Source: Undaria pinnatifida (lineage: Eukaryota > Sar > Phaeophyceae > Laminariales > Alariaceae). From it: a stretch of 64,000 nt of DNA. Made by a program: the position numbers and the translations under genes. Location of the stretch: positions 7,675,473 to 7,739,472 of the forward strand of contig JABAKD010000005.1 of the NCBI GenBank assembly GCA_012845835.1, written 5' to 3'. Of this stretch, positions 8,401-53,300 are shown piece after piece; position 1 is the stretch's first letter; the number at the start of each line of letters is the position of its first letter. The notes beneath the pieces are model-generated. The model had not been told where the DNA came from and did no database searches. It was given only the letters and a program-made list of their open reading frames with translations.

Positions 8401-11400
8401 AGCGACTACATCACAGCCACCATCACAGCGACCATCACAGCGACCATCACACGACCATCATAGCGACCATCACAGCGACTGTCACAGCGACCATCACAGC
8501 GACCGTCACAGCGACCATCACAGCGACCATACCATCACAGCGGCCATCACAGCATCGGTCACACGAATCAGTCCAGGCTATTGGTGTAGGGGGGGTGTCC
8601 GAGCTTCAATTGCAAGGGGCTGTAAAACACGTGCAAAGCATGATGATGCTTGCACTGCCGCGCGCTCTTTCTTGGATGCTCGATACCACCACACTCGGCC
8701 ACTTGTGGTCAGAGTACATGGTTCCCAAAGGGGGTAATGCGTGGGCGCACAGGCCTTAGCTAGCCACGGGGCTTGCCACAGGCCTCGCCAAAGGCCCCTC
8801 TCCCCCCCTCCCCTCCCCTCCCCTCCCCTCCCCTCCCCTCCCCTCCCTTCCCCTCCCCCCCCCCCCCCTCCCTTCTCCTCCCCTCCCACCTCCTCCCCTC
8901 CACTTCCCCCCTCTTGCCTCCGCTCTCCAGAAGAACGCATCTTACCTGTGCGAACCTTCCGAGGGTTCGCATGAGAACCCGCGCGGCTGCGAAAACTCTC
9001 CGCCGGGGTTCGGGGCCGGGGGGAAGCATGTCTTGCTCTAGAGTTGTAAAACAAGCTTCGGCCGCCAGATACAAGAACAGGCCGGAGCTAAATCGCAGAG
9101 CGCTGGATCGAGACAACCGAATCGATGCTCGACACACGCCTTTGAGGGCTGCTTTTCCGTCTCCCTGTGTTGGTTGAGGGCGGGCGGGGGGGGGGGTAGG
9201 GGGAGGGATAGGAGGGGGGGGTACTCAATATAATGTATAGCCGTAGTCGTTAGCGCCATAAGTTAGGGTTAGGGTTGGTGGAAAGCCCTCGCATTCCTAC
9301 AATGGCGGAACGAACCAGGGGGGAGCGGGGGGTACGTGCAGGAGGGAGGAGGGGGACGATGGACAAAGAAAGAATGGGGTATTAAGATGTCACCCTCTAC
9401 GCCTGCGGTGGTAGCCTCCCTTCGCCCGGCGTGCATCACAATCGATGGTGGCAACACTAGTGTGTTTCCGTGTGTTTTTTTGCCTCTTAGCACCCCGATC
9501 TTGATTTTCTCGACAAGTGTTTATGCTTCAGGGGGGCAAGGAGAAACTGCGAACACGCTAGTATTGCAGATTTGTCGCAATTTTGTAAAACTGTAACAAG
9601 TCACGCGCGGTAAAACAACATGTCGGTCCGTGTGGAGTTCCTCGAGGAATCGACTGGCGTTTTTTTACCGTGCTGCGGTAAGGGGGTTGGACTTTTTTCA
9701 CTCCAAATGAATTTTTTTTCTCACGAACGGGGACACCTCAAACTGAGAACCTTCCCCAACATATTTGGATTCGATTAGCATTATTATGGCAATATGGTAC
9801 TATACCCTCGTTTTGAATCGTGCTAGGATAAGGTTTGCACTTTTTGGTGAAAGTACAGGAATTTCTGAACGACGGAGCTCCGTACCCTATTAATACTGTT
9901 GATGCCATTAATAAGATCGTCGGAATGGTGTTCTTTGTACCCCTAGTCTAGCGATGAGTCTTACCCTCGCTGCAGCTAGGTAGGCGTCGAGGGTTTCCAT
10001 AACGATCAAGGAGGCGTGGCTCGTGCCCTCTGTTACCGCCGCTAGTCGCCCCCTCCTTCTCCTCCGCCTCGCCCAATCCTCCTCGACGACGGCTCGGAGC
10101 TGCGCTAAGCTTGCCGAGGCTTCCCCCATGTTGCCCATTAGCGCGTGTACGAGGGCCGCCCCGTGGAGTGATGACTGCAGCGTAAATAGTGTTCGCGATC
10201 AAAACAAACAAAAAACGGGGTTGGTTTGATATTATATCAACCAAACAACAATCAAAGATGGCATATATTTGAAAATATTGATTAATTTGGTTTTCCTATT
10301 CGCGATTGATTGATCGTGAATATTTAAGCGGTTGATTTGTGCGACGTTTAAAAAGTCATCAAACAGTCTGTGTGTCTGCCGAGGCTTCCTCCGTGTTGTT
10401 CATGAGCGCGTGTACGAGGGCCTCCCCGCGCAGTGATGACAGCTAGAGTGTTGGCAACCAAACCGAACAAAGTTAACTGATTGATTGTTGATTAGTTTGG
10501 TCTATTCGTGTGACGAAGTAATCACATGATCACTTCACGATTAGGTGCTTCGTATAGCATATGGATAGCTTTTGTTGGTTGCCAATCACGGCTGCAGCAG
10601 TCTACTGAGAGAGCAGTTTGTTGAGCGGGGGTTGGTGTGGGTCAGGCGAAGAACACAAAAAACGACGACTTCAGTACCTTAAATAGCAATTTGTTGGGTG
10701 GAGCAAAACTTTATATATGTAGGTCGCGATGGCGGTTGTGATGGCTACTATACATTAATCAAACAGTGTGCTGAGTGGGGTTGACCGAAGGAGATCAGGG
10801 GCGTGAGATACGGGTCGCGATCGGGCGCTCTTCGAAAGGCCGACGTTTCTTGCAGCGTACAAGGGTCCTGTGCAGCGATGACTACGGTACACGAGGAAGC
10901 AGCCTTCCTCCCGGTGTGATGTCCCCTCCCTTCTTCCTCTTTCCTCCTTTAGTGAGGTTTGGTGGAGATCACGCAAGGAGGAAATCAAATATATGTATAC
11001 ATGTCGTGTGGTCTGACTTTTGGTGATGATTACTGTACGTGACGGCGCAACTTTTATAGTAGGTTCATTGACGGGGATGTAGTCGGGGATCAAAATAACA
11101 GATTCACGGGTCGTGATCGGCCCGTGATTACTACAACTAATACACGAAGAGAAGCAGTGTGTTGAGCGGGGATTGCTTGATGAGGACCAACCAGGAGATG
11201 AGAAAAAATGTGATATATAGGTCGCGATCAGGGTACCTCTTCGACGCCTCCGATATATTGGGTTGCCCATGATCGCGTGTACAAAGGCCGCCCCGAGAGG
11301 AGTCTACGGAACGACAGACAGCAGCGTTTTGAGTGGCGTTTAGACGGAGCTGTCAGGTCAGAAAGGATCTAGCTCAAAAGTGCTAGCCCTATCGCAGTAC

Positions 11401-14400
11401 GCTCCACACCTGCGAGAGGAAGTCGTCCTTGTGCGTCAACGCCACGTCCCGAACTTCCGTGAACATGAAAAGCGCGTCTTCTGTGTCCCCCAGGCACAGC
11501 TTCACGTATGCCGACTCCACCATCACCTCTCCGCATCGTGACGTGTCGCCGACCTAAAAGATGGCGACGGGTGGGTACGCAGGTGCGGCAAGCATGTACC
11601 GGCCGATTCCTCTCACATCAGAATTACGTTTTCGATGATGATGCGGTTTTGACCAAGAGAATAATTTTGACGAGTGTTTGTGTTTCGTGTGCACCGAGAT
11701 CAACGCCTGAAGTTTTAGACTTCTGAGAGGAGGACAGGGAAGCGATGCATCTAACCTTACACCAAAACTAGCGGCACGGTACGAGGGCGGAGCGGTTTGT
11801 AGACGATCAACTTGAACGCGGTTTTGGAGGCCGTGAATTAGATTTCCACTGGAAAAAGATGCGATGTGTACGAATGTAGTGTGGCGCAAGTACATGCTGC
11901 ACGTGTAACTAGTGGCACAGTATAGTGTGGACCGCTCATAGCCCGGAAATGTGAAGGTTATTTCAGGTCATGAGATTGATCCCGCCAGAAACGATTTAGT
12001 GTGTATAGGTGGGCACAAGGGTCGTTATTCACGAACAAAATATGTGTCTCAAATCGTGACTGTTGTAAAAAAGTTCACAAAAAAACCACAACATCAGACA
12101 AAACGATTCGTACCAAACAATATTATAGATAGGTACCATATACATAGGCTTGTCTAACAGAAAACGAGACACAACGCCATCGTTTCTCAAAACATCACAA
12201 ATCGTGATTGCTTGTCACGAATCCTGCTTTTTTTTAGTCGCTAAGCGTGACTTTTTGTCGTGAGTCGTGCTTTTCGGTCACAAATCGTGACTTTTTGTCA
12301 CGAATCGTGATTTCTTTGTGACGATATATTCGATGTAATCGTTAGTTCGTCTCGACAAAAAGTCGTGCTTTTTTGGGGTTCGAACGTTCGAACGTTACCA
12401 TAGGAATCGCCCTTACCGGCGCAAGAATTTCGAAAGCTTCGGCAAAATCATCCTGCGCATCCTCCGCATGCCCCTCCCCGGCATTGTGTTTTCCCGATGC
12501 GATAAGAATGATTCCCTTTGCGTTTTGTACCATTCAGAAAAAAAAAATCGACACGGGCCAAAGGCGGGAGGGACAGAAGGAGGAAAGGAGGGGGGGAGGG
12601 AGGGAGGGAGGGAGGGAGGGAGGGAGGGAGGGAGGGAGGGAGGGAGGGAGGGAGGGAGGGAGGGAGGAAGGAAGGGAAGGAGAGCGGGGCGGGGCGAACG
12701 TTAGACCTCTGACGCATGGTACCATAGAGGGGTGCACCGAATGCCTCTGGGGGTGCTCACTTACGGCGAGCTATTTCACGGACGTTTGGGAGAAAAACGA
12801 CGGTCCAAAACAGTCCAAACCCGATGACCAGTCTCAAGGCCTAGATACGAAAAGAACATGCACCATCGAAAACACACAAATGCGACTCCAATGGTATCGG
12901 GCAGTTCTTCAGTTGGGGGAGCGGTGTTAATCAGAACAAAAAAAATCGGCCAAAAAATGCTTCGTGCCCCTATCGTAGAGAACGCATTTTTTTTTTTTTT
13001 TCAAATTTAACTCTCGGCGGATGAGAAAAAAAGCACCTTAACCTTTTTAGAACCACGAAAACTATTCCACGCCAACTCCAAGGAATCTGTCCCTGTTGAG
13101 AAGTTCGCCACAATCACTGAAAAGCTAAATCAGCGATATTATTTGAAGGGTAGCTCAGTGGCTACAACTTCAACTATCTTGTCCGTGGTCACTGGGCTAA
13201 TCAGCGCTGACGGGTTTTAGCTCTGGGGTTGTGGTGTATCTCTGCCACGCCATTTCGGGAACACGCACCGCGATCCCCGATAGTACCCAAAAAACGTGCG
13301 GGCGGTTCTAAAGGGTCAAGCTAACCGCAATTCCAGGTATGTGTAGTGCGTCAAATTTACCTTGAAACAGGGGGTGAGGGCGTTTTTTTCGCCCCAGGGG
13401 AGATAACGTTGATGGACACAAGAGAGCGAGAGCAGTCGACGACAGAACCCTCGACGGTGGTCAGCATCAAGCCCGGGGAAATAGAACGATCCAACCGGTA
13501 CGCAAGTAGAATCGTCCACGATAGCCAGCATCAAGCCCGGGAAAATGAAACTATCTTCCAGTTCCTGCGTAAGTGGACCTTGACGTTACGACGAATTGCT
13601 CGCGGTGTGCACCTTTATTGACCCTTGTGACGGGATCGTCGGCTTACTCGGAGATGTATGAGCGCGAACAGAACTCTCGACGATGGTCAACATCATGCCA
13701 TGGAAAACGAAACCATCCAACTCTCCCAAGTCTACCCAAGTAGATCCCAACAATGCTGGAGCTACTAACTTCCCGCAGTGTATCTCGACATTGAAACCAA
13801 CGATTCGCGGTCTGCCACTACACTTACCCTTGTGATGGGATCTTCGACTTCGTCGGTCAGCTCGAGAGCGCGCTCCATCAGAACCGTGGCCTTTTGATGC
13901 CGTCCTCTCGACACCTCCTGCGCAAAATCCGTTCAAGAGAAACGGAGCTTAATCGGCCGTTGTCGAACCCGGAAGGTAATAACGCCTACACACCAACACA
14001 CCACCAACGCCACACTCACAGCCGTGCAATTCCAAAATCAGCCGATCGAAACGCAAACATGAACAAAAGAGCAGCGACATGAACCGCAGCGATGAACAGG
14101 ACGCAATGTGAATGACTTAAAGAAGCACATGCGTCAACGGCAGCTCGTACCGCAAAAAAAAACGTGATACACTCCATACATTGCACAGTTCAGATCTCCA
14201 TTCATAATATATGCCATGCAGGGCAGATACACCCCTGGTCTTTATCCGTGTGATCTGCGTGCTCCATTTTATAGAAAAATTCGAAGTACGTCAGCTGTGA
14301 GGGTCGACAACTTTATGGTCGACACTCTTCTTTGCAAGCTGCGCGATGCACCGGCCGCTCGTTTTCTTCAGGTGTATCACCCTTTGAATGTATGTGACTC

Positions 14401-17400
14401 TTATATATGTTGCCAGGGCGAACATCAACAAAAAGCGGTCAATAATAATGTTAGCTACTATATTTGTAGCACATGTTTTCCTGGCTCGGATCTGTATTGC
14501 ACAGATCCTGAACAACATATAGCACCATAGCGACAGATGTATATAGATATCTAGATGGTGATCTATCCGATGTGTGAAGCACATACAACACCTATTAATA
14601 GCGACAGATGAAGTATATATATTACTTAGATTTGCGATCTGTCTGCTCTATGAAGCACTCGCCTGCTGCGCTATGTTGGCCATAGCGTGTGCTCCTTCGC
14701 TCGTGCTGTTCATGAACTCCACCCCTTGAACGCTCGCTTTCAGCAGGCTGTTGATGAAGGCGAGATTGCCGCCCGCACCGGCCTGCAGGCGGGGTGATTC
14801 GTTTTAGATACAAACAACAGCGTGGTCAACGGAGCCAGAGATCATAGCACGTATTGTGCGTGGACGCCCTCGCCGATTAGTAACGTTCGATAGCTGCATA
14901 AAACCAGATGTGGTCAGTTTGGAGGGCTCAGGTCCGAGTGGGAGTAGGGATGGGGTCAGGGTGCCAAGCGAGATACTGGTATGCTATGTGCTGCATGCAG
15001 GCACAAATAGTGCCACCATCCCATTATATCCAGCAGTCTGATGCAGAGAGCAAACGTGGTACTCGGGAGCTCGCGCGCTGGTCAACAGAAACGATAAACT
15101 TGTGCGCCGTACTCGTAAAATTATCAGAGATCTGAATGGCTGAAGAGCATGTGATGTCTGGCGGAAGTATTGGCAGTGCCCGGGTTTCTTCATCTATTCC
15201 AGAGTCAACCGTAAGCGGCAATATGAAATGTTGAAGGCTCGGTGGGGTACCATGATATCCTTTGGGAACGCTCCCCTCCATGAGAACGCCCCCCCAAAAA
15301 AAACACCGCCGGCGGAGTCCAAACAAATTGAGAACGCCTCGGGGTAATATTATTATCTTTTTGCGCCCCGCTACCTCGGACGTCGCCCCGGGGTGTTCGT
15401 GTTTCGCCTATTTTTTTGCCGCCCCACGAGGCTTTCACAGAAAAATACAAGGCATTCATTCCGGCAGCATTGTTGTTGCTGTTGTTGTCGTTGCTGTTGC
15501 TGCCGCTGTTGTTATTTTTTCCCTTTAAAAAACTTTCAATCAACATAAAAACGAGCACCACCTCGTGCTCTTGCCGACAAACAAACGACTTTCGCTGCCC
15601 GGCGGGTGCCCCGAACAGAAAAAAAACATGCCAACACTCCGGGGACTCTTCGCCCCGGGGTGGTTTTCGTTGTTGCGGTGGAAAGGTTATCCCTCTACCT
15701 CTGAGAGCGCCCCGGGGTGTCGTCTTCCACCAAAAATATGAATGCGCCTGGGGTGGGCGTTCTACAAAAATGTTAAGGTAATACTTCCCGCATATGATTT
15801 TATCGCGGTCGAAACAATTCCAAGACGCGTAAATCAGAGCCCATTGGACGGTAGGTACATTGAACGTCGTTTAAGGGTTTTTCTACTGTTTGTTCGGGCC
15901 GCGATTCAATGCAAAATAGAGCTGCCATGTACATTGTTGGGATTTTGCTGTAGCACGGCAAAAGAAATGTTGGCGCTGAATCGGTTGCGTTCGTATGTAA
16001 TATCAGATTGGGAAAAAAATATACGGGAAACAACAGTATCGTCGTGCTAAGCTCTTTCTCACATAAAATTGAAAATAGACGCGTCAACTGTGAGCTTTGT
16101 CAGTTGTGAGTTTTACCAATGGCATGGTCGGTGCTCAGCTTTGCAGCTTTGCTAGATGGGTGACGTAACACGTCGGCTGCGCGTGTTCCGCCTTTTATCG
16201 AGAATTTTATGAAAATGTTGTAGACCCCCGTCACCTTGATGCTGATGTCCGCGATCGAGCTGTACAACCGAACGGCAAAGAGCGAGTCGTCGACGTCGCG
16301 GGGTGTTCTCCTCAAGCACTCCAGTGCTATACAAAGCGCCCTCTGCATTGGCAGGGTTTGCGATGGTATCGGCTTGAACCCTAGATACGCCAACGCTTCC
16401 TGAATGTCCGGTGGGGGGGAAGCGGGGGGAGAGGGGCGAGTCCATAGAGTAGGGTGAAGTATGAGGGTAGGGTTCGTACTCGTTTGCAGCTTGCGTTTGT
16501 AGCTTGCCTTAGTCATTAGAAAATAGACAGCACAGCGTAGTTCTACACTAGGCCAATCCATCAATCCACTATGGACGAGGAGAAAAAAGACAGCGTAGTT
16601 CTACATTGGTTGATGCTTCCTACACTGGTTAGCACGTTGTTCGTACATGATTGATCACTTCTGCTATGGTAAGATTGATGCTTTCTACGTGGAGTTGAAA
16701 CATTGTTACCACGCGGCACCTGCATGTGGTTGTGAGCCGGGAGGAGTCTCCCCATGCGCAGGTGGGCCATTCCAATCGCCCCAATCCACCGAGCCACTAT
16801 GGACGGGGAAAAAATTGGGTCCGAAAATTCCACCACTGGCAAAAAGTCCGACGCCCACAGCCACTCTTGGTCCTGTCACGGGCAGAAGCCAAAACAAGAA
16901 AACGAGAGTTAGCGAAGCTCGATTTTGCTTGCGAGGTGTAACAATTTCCCCAACAACAGAAGGAAATTACACGGAAAGCAGGGAGAGTTAAGAGATGCTC
17001 GATTTGGCGTGCGAAAAATAAACTATTCACCACAAAAACTTTGTATTAGACGGAATAAAAAAGATATTTAAGAGTGCTCGTTCGCTTTCGAAAAGAGATA
17101 TGAAATAGGCGGGGGGGGGGGGGATAGGTAAGAGTGCACGTTTGCTTTCGAAAGGGGGTATCTTCACCGCCAACAACAGAAATTAACCGGACAGTAGAGT
17201 GTGTTAGGCGTGGTCACTTGCGAAAAGAAACTATTCACAACAGAAATAAATTTGACAACGAGAAAAGAGAGACTTAGGGGTCGATCGTGTGCGGAAAGAA
17301 AATACCCGCAACATATGAAGAATTTTACAAGAAGTGGTGACGAGGGAGTTAAGCATGGTCATTTTTGCGAAATTTGATTGTTCACAAAAAGAAAAAAAAG

Positions 17401-20231
17401 AAAAATAAACATGAAGAGAAGGGTAAGCGAGTGGTGATCGCTTGCGACTAGGAATAATTTACAACAAGAACGTGGCACAAAGTCGCGTGCACCGAAGAAG
17501 CATCCTTCCGCTCTCTCGGTGATATCATTTTTGCCACGAGCATCACCCGATGCCGTTTAGTCAACTTGTGCGCGAGCGTCCTACCTGCGCGTAAAGCACA
17601 ATCTCTCGCGAATCTATCCGTAATTCGAGTACATACCCCGTATATTTTGGGAAAACTCGCCAATCCCAGGGACACAAAAAAAAAACATTTTAATGGTGTG
17701 TGCTGTTGTGCGCTCTCGACGGTTTCACCTTCGCCACAAGCATCGCTCGCTGCCGCTTGTTCAAGGTACCCACGGCACACCCCAGTCTCATCGCCGTCCT
17801 CACGGCATCTTTCCTCTCGGCAGCCTCTGCCTCCTCCCCGGTAAGCGGTGTCGACATCGGCACAATAATCGACGAGTACCGACGTCGATCTCTCCCCGCC
17901 CCCCCCCCAGTCAGCCAGCTAAACACCCCCCCCCCCTCCCGCGCCCCCACCCCGCCAGACGAACCGCCTCCGGTCTTTTTTCCGAGAGCGGATGCCGAAT
18001 CCTGTTTCGCCGATAGACCTTTCGTCTTTGGGCCGTTCGAGGGAACGCCTCCTTCTGTAGGGGAAATCGTGGCTGTTTTGGGCGAAATCTCGGGTCTCTC
18101 TTGCGCATCTAGAGTGGCCTCGACGAACGGTTCGAGCGAGATTATCGTGGCCGTTGCCATGTCTTTGCCGAACGCGATGGCCAGCAGTGTCAGCATGTGT
18201 TGGATCACCTGTTGAGGGGTGGGACGTAGGGGGAACCGGGGTGGGTGGGTATGGGAAAAAGAAGGTGTGGCGGAGGGGGGCGGGACATAAGCGCTTGGCG
18301 CTCGGGGGTTGGAGCTCGATTTCGATTCCCACTTACCAGCCCCAACACCAGGGTAAACACTCGCTCGACCCCGCGCATGTTGTTTGTGTTATACGTGTGT
18401 CGTGTTTTTTACAGACGGGTAAACACTCGCTCGACCCCGCGCATGCTGTTTGTGTTATACGTGTGTCGTGTGCTTCACAGACGCATGCTAGCTACGGTAC
18501 GGATGCACGTGATTTTTCTGAGACTTCTTCCTCCCTCCAAGAGCTGTACACATGCCATCATCATCACCCCCAAAACCAGCTTTGAGCAAAAAAAGAGCTG
18601 GATGTACAACCCAGCGAACAATCCCGCGGCTTCGTTAGATAAACGTTCACTATCGTAAAACGCGCTAGGCATTTCAGCGGGTGCTGGTTTTGAGGAGCCC
18701 CGCGGTTCAGAACTAGTGTGATCAAACAGTGCCACCCCCCAAAAAGTGCGACCCCCACGCTTGAAGTATTACGTTTACCCATCGACACCCAGGACATCCT
18801 GTACGTGCGTGCTCAGCTTCTCATGACTCGCTCTGCAAGTTTGTTCTAAAAGGCATGCTTCGGTAGAGGGGGTATTGTTGGCCCAACTGCGATACCCCTG
18901 GTGCAGCACGCGTCTCCCTAAACTGTATTCTCACCGCCTCGCTGTCGAAAGATTCCTGTGCCTTCGACGCCGCCAGCAGATAGCAGTCCACCTGAAACAC
19001 CCAATCGCCGACGCAAAAAAGAAGAGCGCGGTACGGTTCAGAATGCTTTGCGAATTGTGTTTTTTAACGTCAAGTTGAGTACCACTAACGTCAATACCGC
19101 GGGAGAACTCGTGCTAGCGGTGCTTCTTTGGTGTAAACGGGTGGGCTCTACAAGGACGTACTCGGCTATGAGCTGATGCTACACCGTGAGGCGTCCTTTT
19201 GGTGGATATTGCCGAACCTCATCCAATTCAAAATCAACATCAACACCAACATGACGGTCAACCTCAACCTCAACATCAACCTCAACATCCACATCCTCAT
19301 CCACATCAACATCAACATCAACATCCACATCAACATATAACGTCGACATCAACATCAACATCAACATCAACACCAACATCAAGGTCAACATCAACTCCAA
19401 CACCAACACCAACATCAATATCAACATCAACATCAAACATCAAGCATCAAACATCAACATCAACATCAAGGTCAACACCGACACCAACATCAATATCAGC
19501 ATCAACAACAACATCAACACCATCATCAACACCATCATACCAGTGCCCTCGTACTATTAAAACGAATTCTTTGTCGACCTATACAGTCAATCTGGGTAAC
19601 GCAGCGCAAGCCGGGCCAATGATACTACACACAGGTGGACACATAGACAATCTGATAAAGCGGTAATATCGGACATGCTTCTTCTTTGGCGTAAACCCGC
19701 GGACTCTTCAGTAAGAGCCGGGGCTAACGTTAGCCGCCGTCTTGCCTTCTTATGGGTGTTGCCAGATCTCATCCAGTGGTGCATGATGACGCTCTGGTAG
19801 TTGGCGTTGCCCTTGTGGTGCTTCTCGTACCACTGGGCACAGATTTCGTGCAGGTTCTCCTTTTGATCCGTGAGCATCATCTTGTACACAGTCTGAAGAC
19901 GGAAAAACAAAAAAACAAGGATGGCGCATGGAGGTTAAAGATGCATGCATTTCTATATGCGACAACGGTTGCCAGGTATGACGAAGGGATATTTGCAACA
20001 AGTCATAACGGCACGACGGGGGAAAGGGGATGGTTTAACAGGTTAGTATGCGTACACTTAGATTGTCGGGTGCTGAGCATCATCCTGTACACCGTTCAAA
20101 TACGGCAAACCGAAGGGCGAATTTTTGTTTCTGAGGCCGTATCATGAACAGCACAGACGTGAGGTATATGGTGCTACCATCGACTGCCTTAATAGGCAGG
20201 TCTTCCAGCTGACGGACGCTGTACCCAGGGA

Positions 20232-20278
<47 letters not shown>

Positions 20279-20347
20279 TCAGCAACAACATCAGCAACAA
20301 CATCAGCAACAGCATCAGCAACAACATCAGCATCAGCAACAACAACC

Positions 20348-20387
<40 letters not shown>

Positions 20388-23300
20388 CCCCTGCTAGCAC
20401 AATATAAACCCCAACAACTGCGTAGACCAGTATCAAACCACCCGATATCACAAACAGAGGTAAAAACGCAAGCAAATACGATTGTCGTCTGCCGAGCTTG
20501 AGCATCATCTTGTACACAGCAGTCTGCAGACGGAAAAATAGAAGTAAAAATAAAAGTGCATGGAGGTTAACATTTACATGTTCCACACTGATTCCGCGTA
20601 GTTAGGAGGGACCAATAAATACTGCAGGCACGAATTATGAGTAATGTGTCCCATCAAAATGTCGGAGCAGTTAGAGAGGGGTTAAGGCGTATGCATCAAA
20701 AAAAGACACGCCAGCTGTGAGGTCGAGGTTTTCGTCGAAGCTCGTATTTTTGCACGCTGCGCGTAATGCTTCGACCGCGCGTGCTACACGGGGTGTGTAT
20801 GTCATCTTGTCCGGCATGAGTTGATTTTTGGCAGATCAAGATCAACTACAGTAGGTACCTCTTGCACCGAAGTGTTCACAAAGCCTTTTAACGCATCGAG
20901 GAATACAAGGTATTGCGGTGATGCAGAGGCAGTAACACCTAGGGGATATGATGGTATCGAAAATATCGGTGGGGGGAAAAAAACGTCGGCCCCGCCTAGA
21001 AAAAAACATGTACAGCACGTCCCGCCATGACACGGCGCGAGCGTGGTGGAGGTCGCCCCCTGGTACAGACGGGGTCAGTGAAGTCAGAGAGCACGATGAG
21101 CGAGCAGTGGACAGAGAGGTGAACCTCAACGCGAGGAAACATGAAAAAAAACTCCAAAATCAATTTATGCAAAGCTGAGGAACTCTCCGGGCACAAAACG
21201 TGGGGCATTTTACATATATTTGTGTACCTCTTGGACAGATGTGTGCACAAAGCTGAAACGTTCCGTCTGACCGACGACGGATCTCGAGAGGAAGTTGGCC
21301 TCGATCAGCTTCAGCAGGGCGGTGTGCAAGATCTCCGTTCTGTCTCGACTTTTGTTTTGCAGCATGTGCAGCAGCAAGCTCTTGTCGAAGACCGCCCCGA
21401 TGACTGACAGCGACGGAAACAAACAAAAGAGACACGCACACAAGAAACAGCGCAAAGAGCGGGTTGTCTGTTGTCGCCAATAGCAACGGAGACGAGGTAA
21501 CAAAAACGCATGCTACGGTAGAGCAGGTGCACCTACCTCGTATATTTTTTTACCCTCTCCATTTGAGAATCTCTATCCCAAAAAACTGGCTTCGAGAAAA
21601 AATGAACCAGCAGCACAACGAAAATCAGATGGCCTAGCCTAGGTTATGTTCGGTGTATAACCAAAACGATGTACCGTAGTAACCCCCGTCAGTCAGCCGC
21701 AAATAATTTGGACCAAAAGTGCTACCCCGATTGCAAGCATGCGTCTCTTGTGCTTGAAACAGCGTGAGGTGTGGGGGACAGCAGAAATCCCCAGTGCGTC
21801 CTGATGCACGATGCGCTTGCCAACTGAACAACAAAACGCAGGAGGGGAAACAAACACACGTCCGCATCACCCCCTATCTCGAAGACAGACGCAACATAAA
21901 AAAGGTCCAAGAAAAACGCGTGTCCATGCGCCAGGCTGGATTCATACACGCATCTTCCCTGCGAATCAGGGGCAAGTGTTTTACAATAGTTTTCCGCTTG
22001 AGAGAAAAAAACGTTCTAATAGAAATTTGCGAGTTTTCCAATTTCGACTTCGCCGAAAGTCAGAAACCTTGTCCAGTTTCCTTAAGCGTCTACAAATCAC
22101 CAACGCATGAGTTGACAACAGCTTGGACTACAGGAGGCGGAGCCAAGTTGCTACACCCTATATTACCTGTGCCGGCTTTGAGCACCGTCTGCTCCGTTGG
22201 CTCCAGAGCGTCGAACCGGCTGACGATGAGCGAGTGGAAGAATCCCGCTGGTAGGTCCACAAGTGGCGTTACATTTCCCGACGACAACAGGTTGTCTCTC
22301 AAGGTCTTCAGCGATACCGTGTGCCAGAAAAAATTGCGGGGGGGGAGGGGAGGGAAGGGGGAGTGGTAAACGAAACGTTGGAAAACGAAAATAGGAACGG
22401 GTTGTTTCATACGATACACAGGTTGGTTCTCAACCTTTTCAACGAAACCGGCGTCAGAAAAATGGGAGGGGGGAGGGTTAACAAATAGTTAGCAAAAGCC
22501 AATTCAGGAAACGACTCTTTCTTACGAGCGGAAGAAAATCTCGCCGGTAGGTAGGTCCACAAGTGGCGTTACGTTTCCGACCAAGTCTACAATAGGGGGG
22601 GGTTCGCCTTTTTTCACGAGCGAGTTTGAGACACTCGCACGAGTGACTCTGTACCTCGCTGAAACAAAGACTGATAGGCTATTTGTTTGGCGTAGCGCAG
22701 CTAACCATCCCATAGCGGTTTCAGACCACTAAGAAGACTGCAAAGGAATAGGAGCGTCACTCACGAGCGTCACTCACGCGAGTGACCCCTACCCATCGCA
22801 AAAAGAGGAGCCTAAACTGACCCCCTTATCGTAGCCTTAGTTTTCCCAATCCGACGACACCAGATTGTCTCTCACGGTCTTCAATGATACCGATGTCGTA
22901 AACATCGTGCGGGGAAAGGGACGGGCTAACGACACGTTAGCAAACGACACACAGGTTGGTCCTCAAGGGCTTTGACAGCACCGGTGTCCGAAAAGTTGGG
23001 GGAGGGGAGGTGCTAGCCAAAACGTTGGCAATAAACATTGAGGGGTGGGGTATTTAAAAGGCGACCGTCCATCGAAGTACACGTGTGCCATTGTGCCCAT
23101 AAAAAGGGCGAAACGTGGTGCTGCGGTGATCGTCACTCGGAAACATATCACTTGGTACCAGGAAGCGCTCCCTCTCCCTTTCCCTCAACCTCCCCCCCCC
23201 CCCCCCCTCCCCGTGCCCCTCTCCTCTACATTTCCAGAGCTTTAATTTGACCTTTCCCCGTAAAACATGCCACAACATTCCCAAGCAACGTATGACAAAA

Positions 23301-41300: not shown

Positions 41301-44300
41301 CAGTGCTAAGTCGACAGTGTCTGAGCTCTCGCCGGCGTGTCTTCCAAGCGAGTGACAAGGTTCCGCCGCTTCGGGAACCGAAAGCGGCGTAGTCTGATTT
41401 TTTTTGGCACGAAAAAAAAGGAGTTGTTCCACGTTCCGGTAAAAAGTCACAACATATGATGCCTATCATGACTGCTGGGAGCTCGTGTAGATAGGTAGAC
41501 CCTCATCGGTGTGCAGGGAACAGCACAGAGAAGGTTGGGCAAGCAGAGCAGCGGTACTTGATAGGCCAGTGATCAAGCGACAGGCCGGCTCTTGTGCTAA
41601 TATCTAGTGGGATTTCGTGAAGTTCCTGGTGTGTACCGTACACTAAGGTTAGATGTGAAGGCTGAATCGAAAAAAATGAGCTCTCGTCTGCGTGCCTTCC
41701 CAGCAAATATGTCAGACGAGATGCCATGCAAGTCAAAACGTACCCTGCAAAGGATGTAGCGCCGAATTTTCCACTCGAAAACCCAGTAGTTTGGCGTCAG
41801 TCAAAGGAAAATGAAGGCCAACTTGCTGTCTGCCCAGGGGTAACGGTGCTATCTCCTGACACTCTCGCCTTCCCAGGAAAGAGCACCCGGGCGATACACA
41901 ACGGTTGGCTGTGAGGGCTGAACAGCAAAATCTGTGGCAAAAAACGTACGACGTACCTGAACGTCGTTTTTTGTATGTGGCGTCCCATCAAATTGAAGCC
42001 GGGCGTCTCAATGCAACGTTAAGAATCCTCGTTATACAAACACTGCCAGGGGATAGATAGACCATCATGTTCCATCCTCTGTTTTTTTTCCTTCATAAAA
42101 GTCAGTTTTTGAGTGAGGACACTTCAAAACAGGAGCCTCACAGTTTTAGAGTTTTCACGCGCCAGGAGGCTTTTTTCAATGTCTCGCTGGTCGAGTCCGG
42201 CCGGGGTTAAGGAGGTGCTCGGAACCTCACGGATCGGACCGGACCGGGTCGGGAGAGTTTCCAAACCTCACGGGTTGCGTCAGGTCACCCGGACCGCACC
42301 CGTGAACATTACGTTGTACAGGTATACCCCTATCGAGGCGAGCATCTGTTGCCTACCTGGCGCTCTCTTGCGTGTATCCTCGGAGGGCGGTGCTCAGGTT
42401 CGTCATGGACTTCTCCACTCCTCCGTCATACTGGGCCTGCAAAGTCAACGCGTTTTGAGAAGAGAAAAAAACAGTAGAGAGCAAAGGCAGGGGGGGGCGG
42501 GGGGGGGGGGGGGGTATGATAAAAGTATTTCAATACAAGGGCAAAGGCAGGGAGATGCGGGTAAAAATGGCGCGTGTATGCCTGCAGGGGAAATCCTTCC
42601 TTCGTGCTGTATTCCGTTACTTTCCAACGTCGGATGGGCAACAGAGTCTCAGCTCTATCAACACCATGCCACACCTTCGCGGGATGTTTACAGAAATCAA
42701 GGCATTTTTCGTTACAAAAATGAAGGCACGCATCGGGGTGGAGGAAGGACGACACCTCCTTTTGGCACGGCCGTCTAGAAGACTGCTGGGGAACAAAAGC
42801 CCCTACGAGTTAAGCTGCAAGATAAATTGATAATTGAAGAAGGAACCACAAACATTACACGCGGCTCGCCGTGAGGTGCTTGGCTAAGTAGTTGCTGGCT
42901 TCACAGCACTGCGCCTTTATGGGATACTTACAGCACAACGTTCACATCATGTTCACCTTGATGTACTTGGCCAGGTACTCGCTCGCTTGCGCCCGATGCT
43001 TGTCGGAGATAGCTGGCGACGTGCTGATGTTGTGGGTCACCGTTAGACGCTGAGGCAAGGCAGGGTAATCCATATGACCCAGGGACGGGTCGGGGAGGGG
43101 GGAGGGATGGACTCATTTCATGTATGGTCATTGTGGTACGACCACAGACATTCGCATTCGTACAATGCCGGAACGGAGCACCGTTTCCACTCCTGATGGA
43201 GACACCTCCAACATTTGGACCGGGGGGAGGGGGAGGGGAGGCGTACTCATTTGTTGCTTGTCTTGGTCATTTGCCCATTGACCACGCATCCCTTTCGAGA
43301 CGGAGTACCGTTCCTACTCCTAATAGAGACACCTCCAACATGTGGGCGCTCATTACGCGTTTTACATATATTGCATAGAAACGGTTTACTTGTCCTATCC
43401 CCGTCCTGTTTCGCCGTCTGCGGCCATCATCTATCTCCTAGGATAGGGATCGTTTTCTCTCCACTCCCCAGTCTACCATTTGGATCGGGGGCGGGGGGAG
43501 CGAACAGGGCCAGTTCCGTACTTATGAGGTTGGACCAACATAAACTATTTCGATTGTGTAGGCACCCCCGTTCCTTCTGATCTTATGGGTGGCCGTTACG
43601 CGCTGAGGAGCGGACAGGATAACCCGTAGGCGGTAATGACACCGAGGGGTCCCCGCTGGCCGGACGTTTTTTTCGACAAAAAGTAAACGTGCCGCCCCTA
43701 TTATAGTATACGTCCGAACCAACCTGCTGGGAGAAGAACGGTCGATTCCTGTCAGTGATGGCCGGTCCGTCTTCTTCGTTCGATAACTCCTGCGCATGTG
43801 TCGGACACAAGGGACAATCATTGGAAGGCGTTATTAATAGTACTCAGGAAAAGGGGGTGTGGTTTAATCGTCGAAAAGGGGGAAGGGGAAAAGGGGGGTG
43901 ATAGGTTCATATATATGCGCTTCTTCTTATAAGTTGATGTGGTGCTTACAAAATCTTGCATTGCTCGATAAATCCTTTGGACGTGTCGGACGAAGAGCCA
44001 ATCATTAGAAGGTATCATTACGCAGGGGGCGATAGGTTGAGACACGTTTATTCTCATAAATCCATGCAGTGCCCGTAAATCGATCGACGTCCGTGTTATC
44101 AAACGACATGCTTCCCTTGTGTTGAAACATACCAAATAATAGAAAGGCATTCGTAGCCAGGTAAAGCGGGTGGGGGAACGGGAGGGGGGGGGTGGCATAT
44201 TCGTTTGTTGCTTGCCTTGAGTCATTTGACCAAAGTTGAGCATCGACCACTCATCCGGGTGAACTGACAGCTGACCTATGTAAAAGTAACAAACAAAAAC

Positions 44301-47300
44301 GAAAAGAAACCAAGATGCAATAGTAGTATTCTAACACGTTTTTTCATCATAGTATTACTTTTTTCTTTCCTCGGATGGGGGAAAAAATAAAGGCTAAGCT
44401 CACACCACTTTCCATGTATTTTTCACGCATGTTGTGTGTCAATTTAACTCAATTGATCTTTTCTTTTTCGTTCGTCAGGGATGACCGTAACATGAAAAAA
44501 AAAACAGCTTTCGTCGCGCGCCGTGAGATAAACCTGTCCCTCCCCCCCCCCTGGCCTTTGTAACACCGCAAACATGACCTCACCCTGATTCCAAGCAGTT
44601 GTGCCTCAATACCGTTGGTGGGGACTGGGGACACGAGCCACGGTAGAGGAGAACTGGCTCTGATTTTTTTGCCTTCGACTGATTCCACGATAGCCCCTCC
44701 CCACCCCCCAAACCATGCATTTTTTTTTTGCGAACATTTGATGCCTGCTCGACGTGAGGAAGGATGCTATCAAAATATATACTCCGGATTATATCCATAC
44801 TTTTTTCTTGTTTGCAAAGGGCTATCGAACGAAAAAAAAAGTGTTGCCACTGTCCTTTCTAACACAAAAAAGTGGTTTTGAAAAAAGATGAAAAGTACAA
44901 CCCCGATCAACAACTCTCATGGTCTAGGCATACAAAAAGCCGTACCTGGTACGTAGGGCAAGAGAGGAACGACATTAGGACGATTTGGGGTTAACGAATC
45001 CCGTCATTTTCAGATGTTTTTCTTTTTTCGCCCAAAAATGCTACCCGTACAGTATCACCGTCGCAATGCGTCTGGGGGTTCTAAATTTGGTTGCGCTGGC
45101 TGCACCATCATGTAGCCCAGTGATGATGGTGGATATTTTATCCAAGAGTGGAGCCTCCAGCCATGTCAAATCGACAACCAGCCAAGACGCTTTTTGGCGA
45201 AAACAGTTTCTGAATGACGGGGGGGGCTCCTTGACCCAAAATCGTCAGAAATGCGCCATTTTTTTTTGCTTGATTCTTGTTTGGTCTGTATACGAGGCCA
45301 CGGGATGTTTCGTCCGGCAGCAGTTTTGATTTTTTGTTCTCTTAGGGTCAGCGTTTGGGAGATGTCGTAAGCTCCCAAATTGAGGGGTAGTATTAAGAAA
45401 AAAAGTGGAGCACCTCTATCGTAGCGCGCGTCCATGCCGTGTCAACCAACGCAGGAGGCATGCAAGGCATGGCAGGGGGGGAGCGCCTGATCGTTTCTGA
45501 CGCTCCCGTGCTACCATACCCATACAGTGGTGTGTGCCCATCTTAAGACCATCCGATTTTTAAGATCACGGCAAAGATAAGACAAGGCAAATCGGCTTGT
45601 CACGACGAAAGAAACAACTTCTTGAAATTTGTGTGGGATGATTTTTACAGTAATAAAAGCTAAAACCGCAGTAGAGATAAAAATACCACCTGAATTGGCT
45701 TGCCACGGGGTGGCCTAAAACTGGGTACATCACTGTACCCAGACCGCGGGAAAAAACGAAAACGTTTACCCCGAGGAACACCCCCATGGCCTAGCATAGC
45801 ATGCCTAGCATAGCATGCCTAGCAGAGCATACAGCGATATAAAAAGCATTTCAAGGCGCAACTGGTTTTCCAGCGATGTTGGCCGGTGTCAGCCATTGGT
45901 TGAGGAGTCCCGTCAGTCACTAATATTTCGGCCAATGAAACGCTCCTATTTCGGGAATGTTCTGAGGAATGTTCTGAGCGATCAACGCTGAAATTAACAC
46001 CGCACGTTGTCGGACGGCAAGCGAAGTAGTAGTCAAAACATATCGCCGGACCTCATTACCAGGTAAACGAAGCATACAGCAGCAGCAGCAAAAAAAATAG
46101 AAGTAGCCCATACTTATCATTGGAACTCCTGTGTTCCCCCTTTTCGGCTTGAGACGCCCACGGGATACCAAGCCAATCCCATCCCGAAGGGGAACCTCGT
46201 AATACTATACAATATTATTAACACTATAACACTATAAAATACAATATAATACTAAATAATTTTCATTTTTTATAATACATATATATAATACTACAGTATC
46301 TAATACTATACTTCGGAGTAGAATACCATAAAACTGTAATATGGTCCCCTCTCGTGGTACGCGGGGCAATCTCTCGTCGCGCTCACCGAAGGGGAAAAAT
46401 CCCGCCGCCCGTTGACATCCTTCCTTCCTTTTCTCCGCATGGGACCGTCTCCCCCAGTAACGCTCCCGCTTCGGGCTGCCTTCTCCCCGCCAAGAGGCTG
46501 GGGGGTAGCTGCTTTCGTGTCAGGTCGAACAGACGCGGCAAATAAAGAGAGAAACGAAGAGAGAGAGAGAGGGGAGCGTTCTTGGCGTTTAGAATAACAC
46601 AACGTTGAAACGGGCGATGTGGTCAACTGTATCGAATACGCCGGCGAGAGGGCCAGGAGAGGCGGCTGCCATGTCGGGCCGAACTGACGGGGTATAGCAG
46701 GGAGAGGGGGAGCGACGCGTGCTACGATAGAGGTGCACCACTTTTTTTTTTAATACTACCCCTCAATTTGGGAGCTTAAGACCTCTCCTAAAAACTGATT
46801 TGGAGAAAAATAAAACTGCTGCTACCGGATGAAAAATACCATGGCGTAGGTACACGACGAGGATCACGCCAAAACGTAACCAATTTCCGACGATTTTCGA
46901 GTTGAGGAGCCCCGTAATTGATAAACCTTTTCAGACGAAAAGTGATACCTCCATCGTAGCCCGCGTCTAGTGAGCGGGGAGGTTTTAACGTTCGCGCAAT
47001 ACTAAATATAGATTAACGGCGGAGTCTAGTGCATTATTTGTTGTACTTGCGTCTTCCGGTGGGTGGGCAGGGATGAATCTTCATATCAGCACACTTCCAC
47101 GCATGTGTGTCGCGTGTCAGTTTAACCCGAGTGTCGAAACAACGGTTCGTGCGTGGTAACGGAAGCGCAACGGTAGAGAGAAAGACGGTGCGGCAATGTT
47201 CGCGTTTAGCCCGGTTTAGGATAGCACGACGTTGAAAAACGGACGGACGATAGAGTCGACTATATGGAAACATGCTGTGCTAGAGAGGGGTACGAACTGA

Positions 47301-50300
47301 ACTCATGCCACAGCAGCAGGGGTGTACTGCTGTTTTGCCGATTGGCTCCAAGCTTGAGCGGCAATACACCTCAATCAAATTACAAACAAAAAAAAAAGCG
47401 CGTCGATGAGCTTAACCCACGAGCCAACTGCGTCGAATGTACGAGATAGTAGCAAGAACAACAGCAGAAGGGTACCATTAGTGGTAGGTGGGTTGGGCGC
47501 CACCTGACGCAGCAGGAGGCATAAGAGAGGCGTTTTAGTTTTGAGGGGGGCGGGACAGGTATGGAAAATAGGTAGAGGGCGAGGTGGTTTTCTGTGGACA
47601 ATGGTACCAACCGTCGATCGAAAATACTTTTTTATTCTTAGGCGTAGGAGAGGCGACTGGGTTTGTTTGGGGAGAACAGGCACGGCATATTGGAGAGAGA
47701 TAGTGAGGCGTTGTTATTCGCGTTCATCCTGGTTTAGGATATATAACCGCGACGCTGAGATAGACGATGAGGTCAACTGTATCGAACACGCTGTTGCATC
47801 CTCAGGCGTGGGAGAGGCGGCTGGGTGTAGAGAGCACGGTACAAAGAGAGAGAGGACAGAACGTTCTTCACGTACAACAATGTCGGCGGTGGGATCTGGC
47901 TCACATCCCGTCCTATGTCGTCGTGAAGTCTTAGGGCTGGTCTCTGTTGAAACGTCTCCCGCGGACCCGCGCGATCTTCTCGGAGAAGCCGATCCCGACA
48001 CCGAACCCCCAAGGTTTGATCCGGATTCTCTCGTCGGGGTAGGCGGCCTAGAGTCTGGCGGTAGGGGGGAATGCGTGTCCTTCGGCTCTTTGAGCAGCCA
48101 GTTTCCCTTGAGAATCGCGAAAGGAGAACAAAAATAGCGGGGGCGGCGGGGGGGGAGAGGGAGCTACTCATGTCATGGGAGCGGGGGCGGGGCGTGTACT
48201 CATGTCATGGGGGGAGAGAGGGGGTACTCAGTTTCTGCTTGACCTGTTAATTTTGACCATTGACCACGCATCACATTGGAGATGGAGCAACGTGGTCTAA
48301 AGTAGGGAATGCGCATCCTTCGAGCTATTTGAGCAGCCAGGTGCCCTTAAGACTCTGCGAAAGGAAAACGTAAAGAGGGGAGGGAGGCGTTACTCATGTC
48401 GTGCATAGCCGCAGTCTTAAGACCGCAGACCCTCGCAATCCTACAAGGCCGGGACGAAGCACGTCGGGTTTTCGCCGATCAAGCAGACATCGCGTACACC
48501 AAGCGCGAAGCAGCGCCGTGAGGTGTTCGGCGAGTCGCATGAAGGCTGAGCTACGTCCTGCTAAGAACCGCTTGTGACGCGGACAGTTCGGCTACTTGTG
48601 CGTACCAGCTTACACATGGATGACAGCTTCAAATGCCCATTTTTCCTGGTTTGGCCACTTCCAGACACAGCAATGGGGGTGACGTGTAACTGCCTCATGG
48701 GTGGGTGGTTTACCCTGTTCACCCTACGTGATATCACGCCCCCTTCCGCAGAGATAAGGCTCCGCACCCCGCACAATATGATCTATACAGTAACTCGACC
48801 GCCATCTCGGTTTCCGCCACAAACCAAAAACGAGAATAAAACAGGCGGCACCCTGAGTGTCTAGCTCAAGCAATGAGAGGCGTGTTTTACAGCATCGTTG
48901 CCAGCCGACGCCAACCCAGGGTACGCAGCAGCAATAGCAGCAGCGTGAGGAGGGGGAGGGGTTATCAGGCTTAGTTAGATACCTGTGACCACGGCTTGTC
49001 CAGAATATATAGAAAGTAAACGTGATATTAAACAAAACGTGGTGATTTTTTTGCCGCACCTGAGGCGTCTTGGTCGCCAAGAAGTCGGTGGACGCCAAAT
49101 CCCAGGATTCCGGAGACAAGATAACCTTCCATTAGCGCCACATTTATCCCAGCACGAGAACGTCGATAACGGGGGGGGGGGAGGTAGCAGTAAGGTTAGC
49201 TCAGCAGGGGACGCATGCGTCGTCTGGAGGAGGAGGGGATGTGTGTCACGACAAGAATACCGTGGAGCACCCGATTTAAGAGCCACTCGGAACACATCAG
49301 TTCTGACGAGACGAGGCAAGTGTGCGAAGCGAATTTTTCAACCTCTCTTATGCCCATGCTTCACTTAAACCGATGTCCGTCAACCGTAGCCCCCGTTGCA
49401 TGAGCTTCGTGTGCGACGTTTATCGTCCTTCATGGATACAAGCCAACAAAATCATTTCGACTGTCGTAACAGGCCACGGCAGGTCAACGCGACAGCCGGT
49501 CGATTGACCTCGGCTTGCATTCATGGTGCTCGCATGCTCGCAATTATTTCGGCATAAATATATCTGTGTTGCTATATAATAAAGTGGCATAATTGTGGGT
49601 TTTCTTCATAAGAGTACCATATGTGAACCTTTCTGAGAGCACAACCAGCAATACAGGCATGAATGGGCGTAAATGATGAAAGCATAAAAGCATAATGGGA
49701 AAAAGATACAAATTTAAAAGACAAAAAAAACAAAATTGATAGCAAGCTTAGATTGACCTCCACGTGAACACGAAAGCTAGAGAGAGTCACAAGCACAACA
49801 CAACATACAATTCTGTCTTGCTTAACTAAAAACACGCACCTCTCCCTGCTTCGCTTCAGGTTCTGCCGATCCTATTTGGCGAAGGGGATCCCCGGCCACC
49901 AAGTACTCCCACCGATCTTCTCCTCCCACCAAGTACCCGTACATGTTCCCGCTGAAGTAATAGTTGTGGGGTTGGCGTTAAAAAACAGGCATCAGGGGTT
50001 AGGGTTAGCGTTAGCGATGAGGGCATGTTGCCGCTGAAACCATATGTTTGTGGGGTTGGCGTTAGAAATCAGGGGTCGAGGATTAGGGTTGACGTTAGAG
50101 ATGAGGGCATGTCGCCGCTGAAATTATATCGTTGTGGGAATGGCGTAAGCATCAGGGGTCCGGGGCTAGGGTTGTCGTTAGGGACAAGGGCAGCTGAAAT
50201 TACATTTTGTGGGGTTGGCGTTAGGTATAAGGTATCAGGGGTTAGGATTGGCCTTAGGGATAAGGGAAGGGCACGTTGCCGCTGAAATGGTATTTTTGTG

Positions 50301-53300
50301 GGGTTGGCGTTGAGAATCACGAGTCAGGGATTAGGGTTGGCGTTACGATAAGGAAAGCTGAAATCAAGTTCTGTGGGGTTGCAATTTGGCATCAGGGGTT
50401 GGGGTTGGCGTTAGGGATAAGGGCATGTTGCCGCTGAAATGATGTTTTTGTGAGCTTGGGGTTAGGAATCAGGGGTTAGAGGTTAGGGTTCGCATTATAG
50501 GCATAAGGACGTGCTGCCGCTGAAATGATACTTTGTGGGGTTGGCGTCAGTAATCAAGGGTCAGGGATTTGGGTGGGTGTTAGGGATAAGGGCAGCTGAC
50601 ATTATATTTTGCGGGGCTGGCGTTAGGAATTAGGCATCAGGGGCCAGGGTGGGTTGGCTTAAGGGAATAAGGGCATGTTGCCGTGGAAATGACAGTGATG
50701 GGGTTGGCACTAGGAATCAGGGGTCAGAGATTAGGGTTGGCGTTATAGAGGTAAGAGCATGTTGCCGCTGATTTTGTTTTGGGGGGTTGGCGTTAGGAAC
50801 CAGGGATCAGGGGTTAGGATTGGCGTTAGGGGTAGGGGCATGTTGCCGCCAAAAATATTGTTTGTGGGGTTGGCGTTAGGAATCAGGGGTCAGGGTTTGG
50901 AACAGGGGTACGGTTTGCGTCAGAGGTCACGGAATGTTGTTGCCGAAATGATATTTGGCCCACCAATGCCTAACTGGGGGACCCCTACAGATGTATATAG
51001 TTGTTGGTGGAGGGTGGCAAAGTTTTTGGAAGTGTAAGTATTTACGGAGGACCATAGTCACAATCAAAACCGACGATGCACCAAAACCTACATATTCCCC
51101 TCATTTTACCAGCCATCTTCGGTCCTGATTACTACTGGTATGTTGCCCCGTAATAGGAGACCGCGGTTCGACCGCTTGAATGGCCGTCCCTCTACACTGA
51201 ACCTGGTACGTTTAGGCAGAAGAGGTCTTGACAAGCCCAGAGATGCTAGGAGACCGCGGTTCGACCGCTTTGACTGACCGCCCCCCCCATTCTAAAACTA
51301 GCTTTAGTTGGGTCGAAAGAGGTCTTGACACGCCCAAATATGCAATCAAGGAGAATAGTAGCAATCAGAACCCACGATGTACACAATAATCTATACATTC
51401 CACTGTGTTTACAAACCATATTTGGTCGTGATTACTATGTTCCAACGTAAATAATTCTTGCTACTAAAACTGCAAGACTTTCATCATCAATTCTCATGCT
51501 CTAGGGAGACGGTGCCTCCGCGGACCTCTCTGCCCGTCGGAAAGGACCCCCAACTCTCAAGGGGCAAGTCGTATGCGCCAGGTGTGCGGCTGCTCTGAGC
51601 CATGCCAGAGCCCGCACCAGAGGCAAGCGCCCAGCAAACAGGCAGTCTCCCGATGCGACCGAGCTCCAAGCTCCAAGCTCAGCTGCTTGCAGCGCACCGA
51701 TATGCTACCGACACACTGACTGACACTACTGTTGTCGTGTAATAACTGATTTGTACAGTTAGTTTGCCGATGCAACCGAGCTCCAAGCTCCGAAGAGCTG
51801 CTTGCAGCGCACCGATGTGCTACTCACACACCGACTGACACTACTGTTGTCGTGTAACAACTGACTTTCTCTGTTGTTTTGCGTAGCAATGTGGCCGTCC
51901 CCAGTACCACCCACCTCCCCATCCCGCAATGAAGACGAAGCGCCACCGCTTCCTCCCCCTTCCCCACGTCGTACTTGCCGCACTCGCTAAGCATCGCCAG
52001 CGCGCACGCCGACGCCTGCATCGCGTTCGCCTGATGATTTTGTGCAACAAAACGCATGATGCAGCACACACCTGGCATGTTACTTGACTCCACACAGCGC
52101 TGGCAAGATCTTCAAGGGCGCGACTACACACAGCGCTATCAAGATCTTAAAAGAGAGGCGACTCGACTAGCTCCCGCGGCGGTAGACATACGGAACGGTT
52201 TCCAGATCGAACGCGCGACCACGTGCCCGCTACGGTACGCAGGGGCAGCACCTCCAAATTCTGAGGCTCGTAACCTGTAAGGAGTTATATTGGAGGCGTG
52301 CTTCCATAGGGGTTAAAAATTTTAGGCTACTTATGGCTAACAATATTTTTCTGGATGACGGGGCTTCTTGATTCAATGTGTTTGGACTGTCATTCTAACT
52401 TTTTCGTCATTATTCGTTGTATACCTAAGCCATGAGGCTTCTCTCGTCGGGATACAGTATCTTTTCGTCGTCGAAGTTAGCGTTTGGGTGGGACAGAGAG
52501 AACAGAGGGGACAAAGAGCACAGAGAGGACAGAGAGGACAGAGAGGACAGAGAGGACAGAGAACGCTCTTCTCTTCAACTGAGGAGCCTCAGAACCAAAA
52601 TGCGGTCATACTCTCTATCGTGGCACATGCGTCGTTCTACCTCACCACCCACGTACCGACTTTGGGACAGAACATTGTAGGCTAAGTTCGATACAAAACC
52701 CCATAGGTTACGTGGGCGTCTCGCGAGCAATGCAAGAACATACTACATCGGACCCGAAGATAAATAGCGTATGCAAACAGGTTCCCCTTTCGGGTTGCGG
52801 TTGGCTTGAAATCCTCGAGGGGGTGTCTTCAGTTGGAAAGGGGGACAAAACTCTTGCATGGACTGAAGAAAAATAACGTTTAGCCACCGCACAAGTAACC
52901 CGGTAAGTAACACCAAAGACAATAGCGTATACAAGATTACCCCTTCGGGATGCGGTTGGCTTGAAATCCCAGGGAGGTGTCACAAGTGAAAAAAAAAAGA
53001 GGGACACAGCTCTTGTAAAAACTGAAGCAAAAACCATTTGTCTACCGCACAAGTAACCCGGCAGGCAACACCGACCAGCCCAAAACGAGTTTTATAGCGT
53101 AGTTTAATAACTTCGCAGTTGAGGTACCCCGTCTGCCAGAAACAAATTAACCCCCCCAAAAGCTACCCTTATAAGGTCTCAGCACGTGTCATCAGAGGGC
53201 AGCGCACGAACGGTAGCGACAAGAGCTCTTCATCGAAAAAGGTGCGGTTTTGTTACTTTGTCCGCGAAGCGTTGACGGGACTTCCTCGTGTGGACAGCAG

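Follow-up and report, generated by a model that had tools for sequence, protein, structure and literature searches.

The introns of a gene for a predicted ADCY10-like soluble adenylyl cyclase in the brown alga Undaria pinnatifida contain decaying copies of the adjacent exon borders, and these copies are best read as the products of recurrent local tandem duplication in direct orientation, a neutral process by which the introns have probably grown. The gene lies in a stretch of 64,000 nucleotides of contig JABAKD010000005.1 (assembly GCA_012845835.1, positions 7,675,473 to 7,739,472), here called the window and numbered from its first nucleotide, and the analysis covers this one gene and this one 64-kb window. 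In the proposed mechanism, the introns of the gene would lengthen through repeated local tandem duplication, and some of the duplicated units would straddle an exon border. Splicing would continue at the site beside the intact exon, and the duplicate of the border, together with the first exon bases, would be stranded in the intron and would then decay. The gene was placed as follows:

5215..58451, minus strand: predicted soluble adenylyl cyclase (ADCY10-like) gene, supported by the self-trained exon model, a PDB match, brown-algal homologues, exons located by tblastn and two matches to PF00211

The gene model comprises 40 exons running from 58451 to 5215, and its 39 introns have 35 GT donors, 4 GC donors and 39 AG acceptors. 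Direct copies in the adjacent intron were found for the acceptor borders of nine exons (7, 9, 10, 12, 24, 25, 26, 28 and 37) and for the donor borders of three exons (27, 30 and 34) that had been named in an earlier note on this DNA; a copy of the exon 21 donor border is an addition to that list. The earlier note had described decayed copies at 13 borders under its own exon numbering, the correspondence of which to the present model was inferred (7, 9, 24 to 28 and 30 unchanged; 11, 13, 33 and 36 equivalent to 10, 12, 34 and 37). On this numbering 12 of the 13 are confirmed, and the remaining one, its exon 10, falls away, there being no homology-supported exon at that place and a nearby repeat that stops 22 bases upstream of the predicted border. 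The region described in the note starts at 10175, where the intron preceding model exon 37 (9965-10174) adjoins that exon, and ends at 50960, the far end of an array upstream of exon 7.

Local direct blastn matches cross the acceptors of exons 7, 9, 24, 25, 26, 28 and 37 and the donor of exon 34, and base-by-base alignment adds the acceptors of exons 10 and 12 and the donors of exons 21, 27 and 30. In whole-window blastn, exon 7 has by far the lowest E values, and those of exons 9, 24, 25, 26, 28 and 37 are ~1e-4 to 1e-16. The similarity exceeds chance for most border copies; those at exon 10 (score 36) and exon 30 (score 35) are weak, and a match near the exon 3 acceptor is entirely intronic. 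Short exon 29 (18935-18991) was added to the model late, and the blastn border mapping, the copy alignments and the early statistics used a 39-exon model. The border copies are:

49942..50960, minus strand: array upstream of exon 7 with a period of ~83 bp, the last unit of which holds the acceptor (49951/49952) and 10 exon bases
48305..48389, minus strand: copy of the exon 9 acceptor border (source 48067-48148; exon part 35/41 and intron part 34/44 identical; E ~1e-12)
43577..43628, minus strand: weak copy of the exon 10 acceptor border (source 43024-43074; score 36; exon part 20/26, intron part 19/26)
41867..41919, minus strand: copy of the intron end before exon 12 (source 41252-41307), with only 2 exon bases
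25406..26305, minus strand: serial copies of the exon 24 acceptor border at 25406-25448 and 26176-26305, to which permissive scoring adds 25918-26000 (source 25222-25352)
24070..24138, minus strand: copy of the exon 25 acceptor border (source 23831-23897; exon part 39/49, intron part 16/20)
22525..23090, minus strand: tandem copy of a 294-bp unit (source 22231-22524) that holds 75 nt of exon 26 and its acceptor
20074..20570, minus strand: two copies of the exon 28 acceptor border, at 20074-20109 and 20499-20570 (source 19871-19938)
10377..11295, minus strand: two copies of the exon 37 start, at 10377-10471 (with the acceptor region; source 10112-10212) and 11262-11295 (exon bases only)
27694..28008, minus strand: two copies of the exon 21 donor border, at 27955-28008 and 27694-27731 (source ~28085-28137)
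20855..20884, minus strand: copy of the exon 27 donor border (source 21224-21253; exon part 22/26, intron part 4/4)
17510..17564, minus strand: weak copy of the exon 30 donor border (source 17710-17764; exon part 27/36, intron part 13/19)
13442..13872, minus strand: 226-bp head-to-tail duplication crossing the exon 34 donor (13828), with halves 13442-13666 and 13668-13872 (64% identity, E 3e-11)

Eight other units of the exon 7 array resemble the acceptor and exon start, and six of these eight keep the CAG. The exon 26 copy abuts its source and is interrupted by 272 bp (22579-22850), and a further partial copy (22411-22477) lies within the source unit. Telomere-like repeats resembling TTAGGG were observed at 28071-28108, beside the exon 21 donor, and also within the units of the exon 7 array (49942-50960).

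The claim of the earlier note that the copies share the orientation of their source and lie only in the adjacent intron is borne out. When the borders were compared on both strands with the window beyond their own exon and adjacent introns, 0 of 80 matched at score 34, and dispersed elements, which the note had named as a possible alternative source, and introners were therefore rejected within the window. Inverted templated copies were likewise rejected, as no inverted copy was present in the own intron of any of 39 acceptors and 39 donors at all thresholds tried. Direct duplications cover 17% of the introns and inverted duplications 2.2%, and an earlier count of intron positions in duplications gave 995/8772 and 86/8772, respectively.

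A head-to-tail unit test was applied to the acceptors of exons 7, 9, 10, 12, 24, 25, 26, 28 and 37 and to the exon 34 donor. Head-to-tail units are visible at the exon 7 array, at exon 26 (294 bp) and at the exon 34 donor (226 bp); the intron-only part of the full-unit alignment at exon 26 reaches z 15.9 to 16.6, and the unit at the exon 34 donor reaches z 17.6. On the acceptor side, exon windows of 50 nt have a match in the upstream intron in 28 of 307 cases when their near edge lies 0-40 nt from the acceptor, in 1 of 134 at 40-60 nt and in 0 of 580 beyond that. This confinement of exon-derived copies to the vicinity of the acceptor is expected from units that straddle the border, and since a duplication that stays beside its source leaves exon bases in the intron only if it straddles the border, a tandem origin is favoured. 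We infer the same origin for the copies at exons 9, 10, 12, 24, 25, 28 and 37 and consider that the remaining border copies would have arisen likewise, through a process that would be neutral and not limited to this gene.

Arrays found by Tandem Repeats Finder were masked in the 60-nt window, border-spanning, coverage, 300-bp flank, 200-nt upstream and elsewhere-in-window tests; the rank test was unmasked, except that 6300-8800 was excluded from its intron controls. Intergenic stretches of the window exhibit duplication levels of 0.117 and 0.235, compared with 0.168 for the introns by the same method, and we conclude that duplication is a general property of non-coding sequence here. The earlier note had proposed that introns grow by tandem duplication across exon borders. 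Local direct duplication, with some units crossing borders, withstands this analysis, but border specificity appears weak: in the border-spanning test, acceptors and donors together gave 9 spanning duplications against 7.7 expected under strict scoring (P 0.35) and 12 against 10.3 under permissive scoring (P 0.31), so that duplications are nearly as common at random intron positions, although an acceptor excess remains under strict scoring.

Several observations weigh against neutral tandem duplication as the whole account. In 60-nt windows compared with the rest of the intron, 10 of 39 acceptors match at score 36, where 3.1 are expected and 0 of 2000 draws are as high. The border-spanning test with strict scoring gives 8 of 39 acceptors against 3.9 expected (P 0.016), and the 300 bp at the acceptor are more duplicated than the 300 bp at the donor (means 0.147 and 0.063, paired P 0.003), a surplus that plain neutral duplication does not predict. 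Past the border, the intron parts of the copies at exons 9, 10, 12, 25 and 28 retain no similarity (z -0.6 to 1.9) and those at exons 24 and 37 retain little (z 2.4 to 3.5), with the exon parts of all these copies preserved about as well as that of exon 26. The donor side departs from the acceptor pattern: of the exon windows lying 40-80 nt inside, 6 of 238 have a match in the downstream intron, but none of the 300 that lie within 40 nt has one. At 50 nt, the windows are longer than the exonic portions of the donor copies (24-36 nt).

The first group of these observations favours an account in which duplication starts at, or is tolerated across, 3' splice sites preferentially, so that introns grow mainly at the 3' end; on balance this account is unlikely. 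Donors match in only 2 of 37 cases at score 36 (those of exons 16 and 21 were unscored owing to masking), and a similar earlier window test gave 10 of 38 acceptors against 2.0 expected. However, in two of the ten matching acceptor windows the match takes in few or no exon bases (0 at exon 3 and 2 at exon 12), P rises to 0.053 at score 28, and the border-spanning acceptor P ranges from 0.016 to 0.096 depending on scoring. Permissive scoring, which is relevant because similarity is lost sooner between two intron arms that both drift than between an exon and its copy, gives 8 of 39 acceptors against 5.2 expected (P 0.085), and spanning donors number 1 under strict and 4 under permissive scoring. 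The acceptor excess amounts to 1.5- to 3-fold, varying with the scoring, with none for donors, and the direct comparison of acceptors with donors yields Fisher P 0.14 for 10 against 4 of 39 and P 0.025 for 10 against 2. Without masking, the acceptor excess shrinks, 10 of 39 acceptors matching at score 36 in comparison with 10.1% of intron positions (rank test P 0.25), and the duplication rate at the acceptor is not clearly higher than in the 200 nt upstream.

Conservation of the acceptor region also makes its copies more detectable. Detection bias clearly contributes, as permissive scoring removes most of the acceptor excess, but it was rejected as the entire explanation because donors share the conserved exon half yet exhibit no excess. 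Serial copies at exons 7, 24, 26, 28 and 37, the acceptor-side excess and the retention in copies of residues that the exon has changed are compatible with growth from the 3' end. It is accordingly conceivable, though doubtful, that introns in this lineage grow from their 3' ends via repeated acceptor-anchored units, leaving serial, datable fossils of exon starts and sparing the donor side. An acceptor-side bias is possible and is beyond what one gene can settle.

The lack of similarity past the border part at exons 9, 10, 12, 25 and 28 would also be accounted for if border pieces of ~40-130 bp had been inserted some way upstream by break repair or via RNA, without tandem duplication. This is improbable, given that inverted copies, which are also expected of break repair, are absent at borders, that copies from deep within exons are absent on the acceptor side, and that there are three clear tandem cases. 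Copies of donor borders exist as well, and a route via a lariat intermediate would not yield them.

Under recurrent tandem duplication, the copies would drift once stranded. Across 14 copies, mismatches between exon and copy number 11/154, 14/155 and 29/155 at codon positions 1, 2 and 3, and this third-position surplus fits silent change in a coding exon paired with unconstrained drift in its copy. Several residues peculiar to this alga recur in the copies, as at exons 25, 26 and 37, suggesting that the copies probably postdate the divergence from the sampled relatives. At exon 26 (copy at 22851) and exon 37 (copy at 11262), the copy carries a relatives-like residue where the exon differs, which may represent the older state or a chance change.

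Copied acceptors appear largely decayed: 12 of 13 have an AG no more than 6 nt from where it is expected, in a check that may score a neighbouring AG and that included only two units of the exon 7 array, and 11 of these 12 fall below the authentic median of 4.3, with one above it. The exon 28 copy at 20499-20570 retains a strong acceptor (20523; score 5.8, 99th percentile of intronic AGs) and is a candidate cryptic site. Use of the copies of exons 9, 25, 26 and 28 would introduce stop codons (four of five tested), and use of the nearest exon 24 copy (acceptors 25440/25443) would extend the exon in frame by a stop-free 177 or 180 nt (25264-25443). The exon 24 and exon 28 cases would suit retention of the copies by selection as alternative or decoy splice sites, but the decay of most acceptors and the stop codons make this very improbable. 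Judged from their sequence, the copies appear to be harmless relics and not part of a special mechanism acting on splice sites, and they are presumably unused in splicing.

Least probable of all is intron gain or a splice-site shift via duplicated AGGT-like sites, to which the earlier note had pointed. Border sequence is indeed duplicated inside introns, and one Ectocarpus protein model (P0003), in which exon 24 differs, has extra residues at the exon 23/24 junction. However, the acceptor copies are not purely exonic and include the older intron end upstream of the AG, on which ground AGGT intron gain was rejected, and the protein junctions at exons 7, 9, 25, 26, 28 and 37 are unshifted relative to the relatives aligned there, so that the suggested shift of splice sites finds no counterpart at the protein level at these six borders.

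The gene itself was located via self-trained exon prediction and then homology; direct Pfam scans of nine open reading frames (ORFs) and of two 10-kb minus-strand stretches in three frames returned no match. The window-trained exon model, for which training was done on the minus strand, scored 457 for a minus-strand gene against 165 for the plus strand. A 183-residue piece of the predicted protein matches ADCY10 (soluble adenylyl cyclase) in PDB (E 8e-6), and the joined protein has homologues in Ascophyllum nodosum, Ectocarpus and Scytosiphon promiscuus, together with two distant ones (bacterial or unnamed). The cyclase domain PF00211 was matched by two of three protein pieces given to Pfam, the third, C-terminal piece being without a match, and the gene product is therefore predicted to be an ADCY10-like soluble adenylyl cyclase with two class III cyclase domains. 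Compared exon by exon, the protein is 65-66% identical to each of three brown-algal proteins, one per genus, and the majority of exon borders were set by tblastn with algal proteins. For exons 19, 20 and 21 the sole evidence is prediction, support for exon 1 is weak, both gene ends are uncertain, and introns 9 and 20 may conceal more exons. The GC donors lie at 55539, 26539, 19746 and 14663 (exons 3, 23, 28 and 33) and were placed by homology. At the exon 5/6 junction (52030), the Ascophyllum and Scytosiphon proteins are two residues longer than the gene, and no border copy was detected there.

Internal gene duplication, as reportedly described by Gao and Lynch, comprises duplications inside genes that are able to cross exon borders. 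Intronic minisatellite arrays offer a further likeness: the window is rich in simple and tandem arrays, and the array upstream of exon 7 belongs to this class, but its unit differs in including the acceptor and first exon bases. Tandem genomic duplication has been reviewed as a mechanism of intron gain (PMC3443670), and the two cases are alike in that duplication within a gene yields extra splice-site-like sequence; in the part of that review considered here, an exonic AGGT segment is duplicated to form a new intron, whereas in Undaria existing introns lengthen and the unit includes intron sequence. For novel intron positions in Drosophila, tandem duplication and intron sliding have been discussed (PMC2891723), and local duplication near exon borders is similarly proposed there to alter gene structure; unlike that proposal, as far as the part of the article considered goes, no junction has moved at the six borders compared here. 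Introners (PMC9860276), in the portion of the source drawn upon, likewise involve repeated sequence tied to introns but insert into many genes, whereas each copy here resembles its own border only, within the window. Among literature titles and abstract openings, no title on decayed border copies in existing brown-algal introns was noticed, and absence from print is not claimed. A search of viral contigs with protein P0002 returned no relative and no orthologous DNA.

Elsewhere in the window, an ACAGCGACCATC array of ~2 kb with a period of 12/49 lies at 6528-8530, inside intron 38. A minus-strand ORF of 328 amino acids at 62851-63837 resembles, by eye, the end of a retrotransposon reverse transcriptase and has no match in Pfam. 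Scans of the window for tRNAs and, at the gathering threshold, against Rfam were empty.

Duplications that cross exon borders strand pieces of coding sequence in introns, where they can be dated against the living exon, with the caution that conserved exon bases make border duplications more visible than purely intronic ones of the same age. If the acceptor bias were found genome-wide, it would give the direction of intron growth and would show what the splicing machinery tolerates. If it were not, the gene would still illustrate clearly how long introns come to be assembled.

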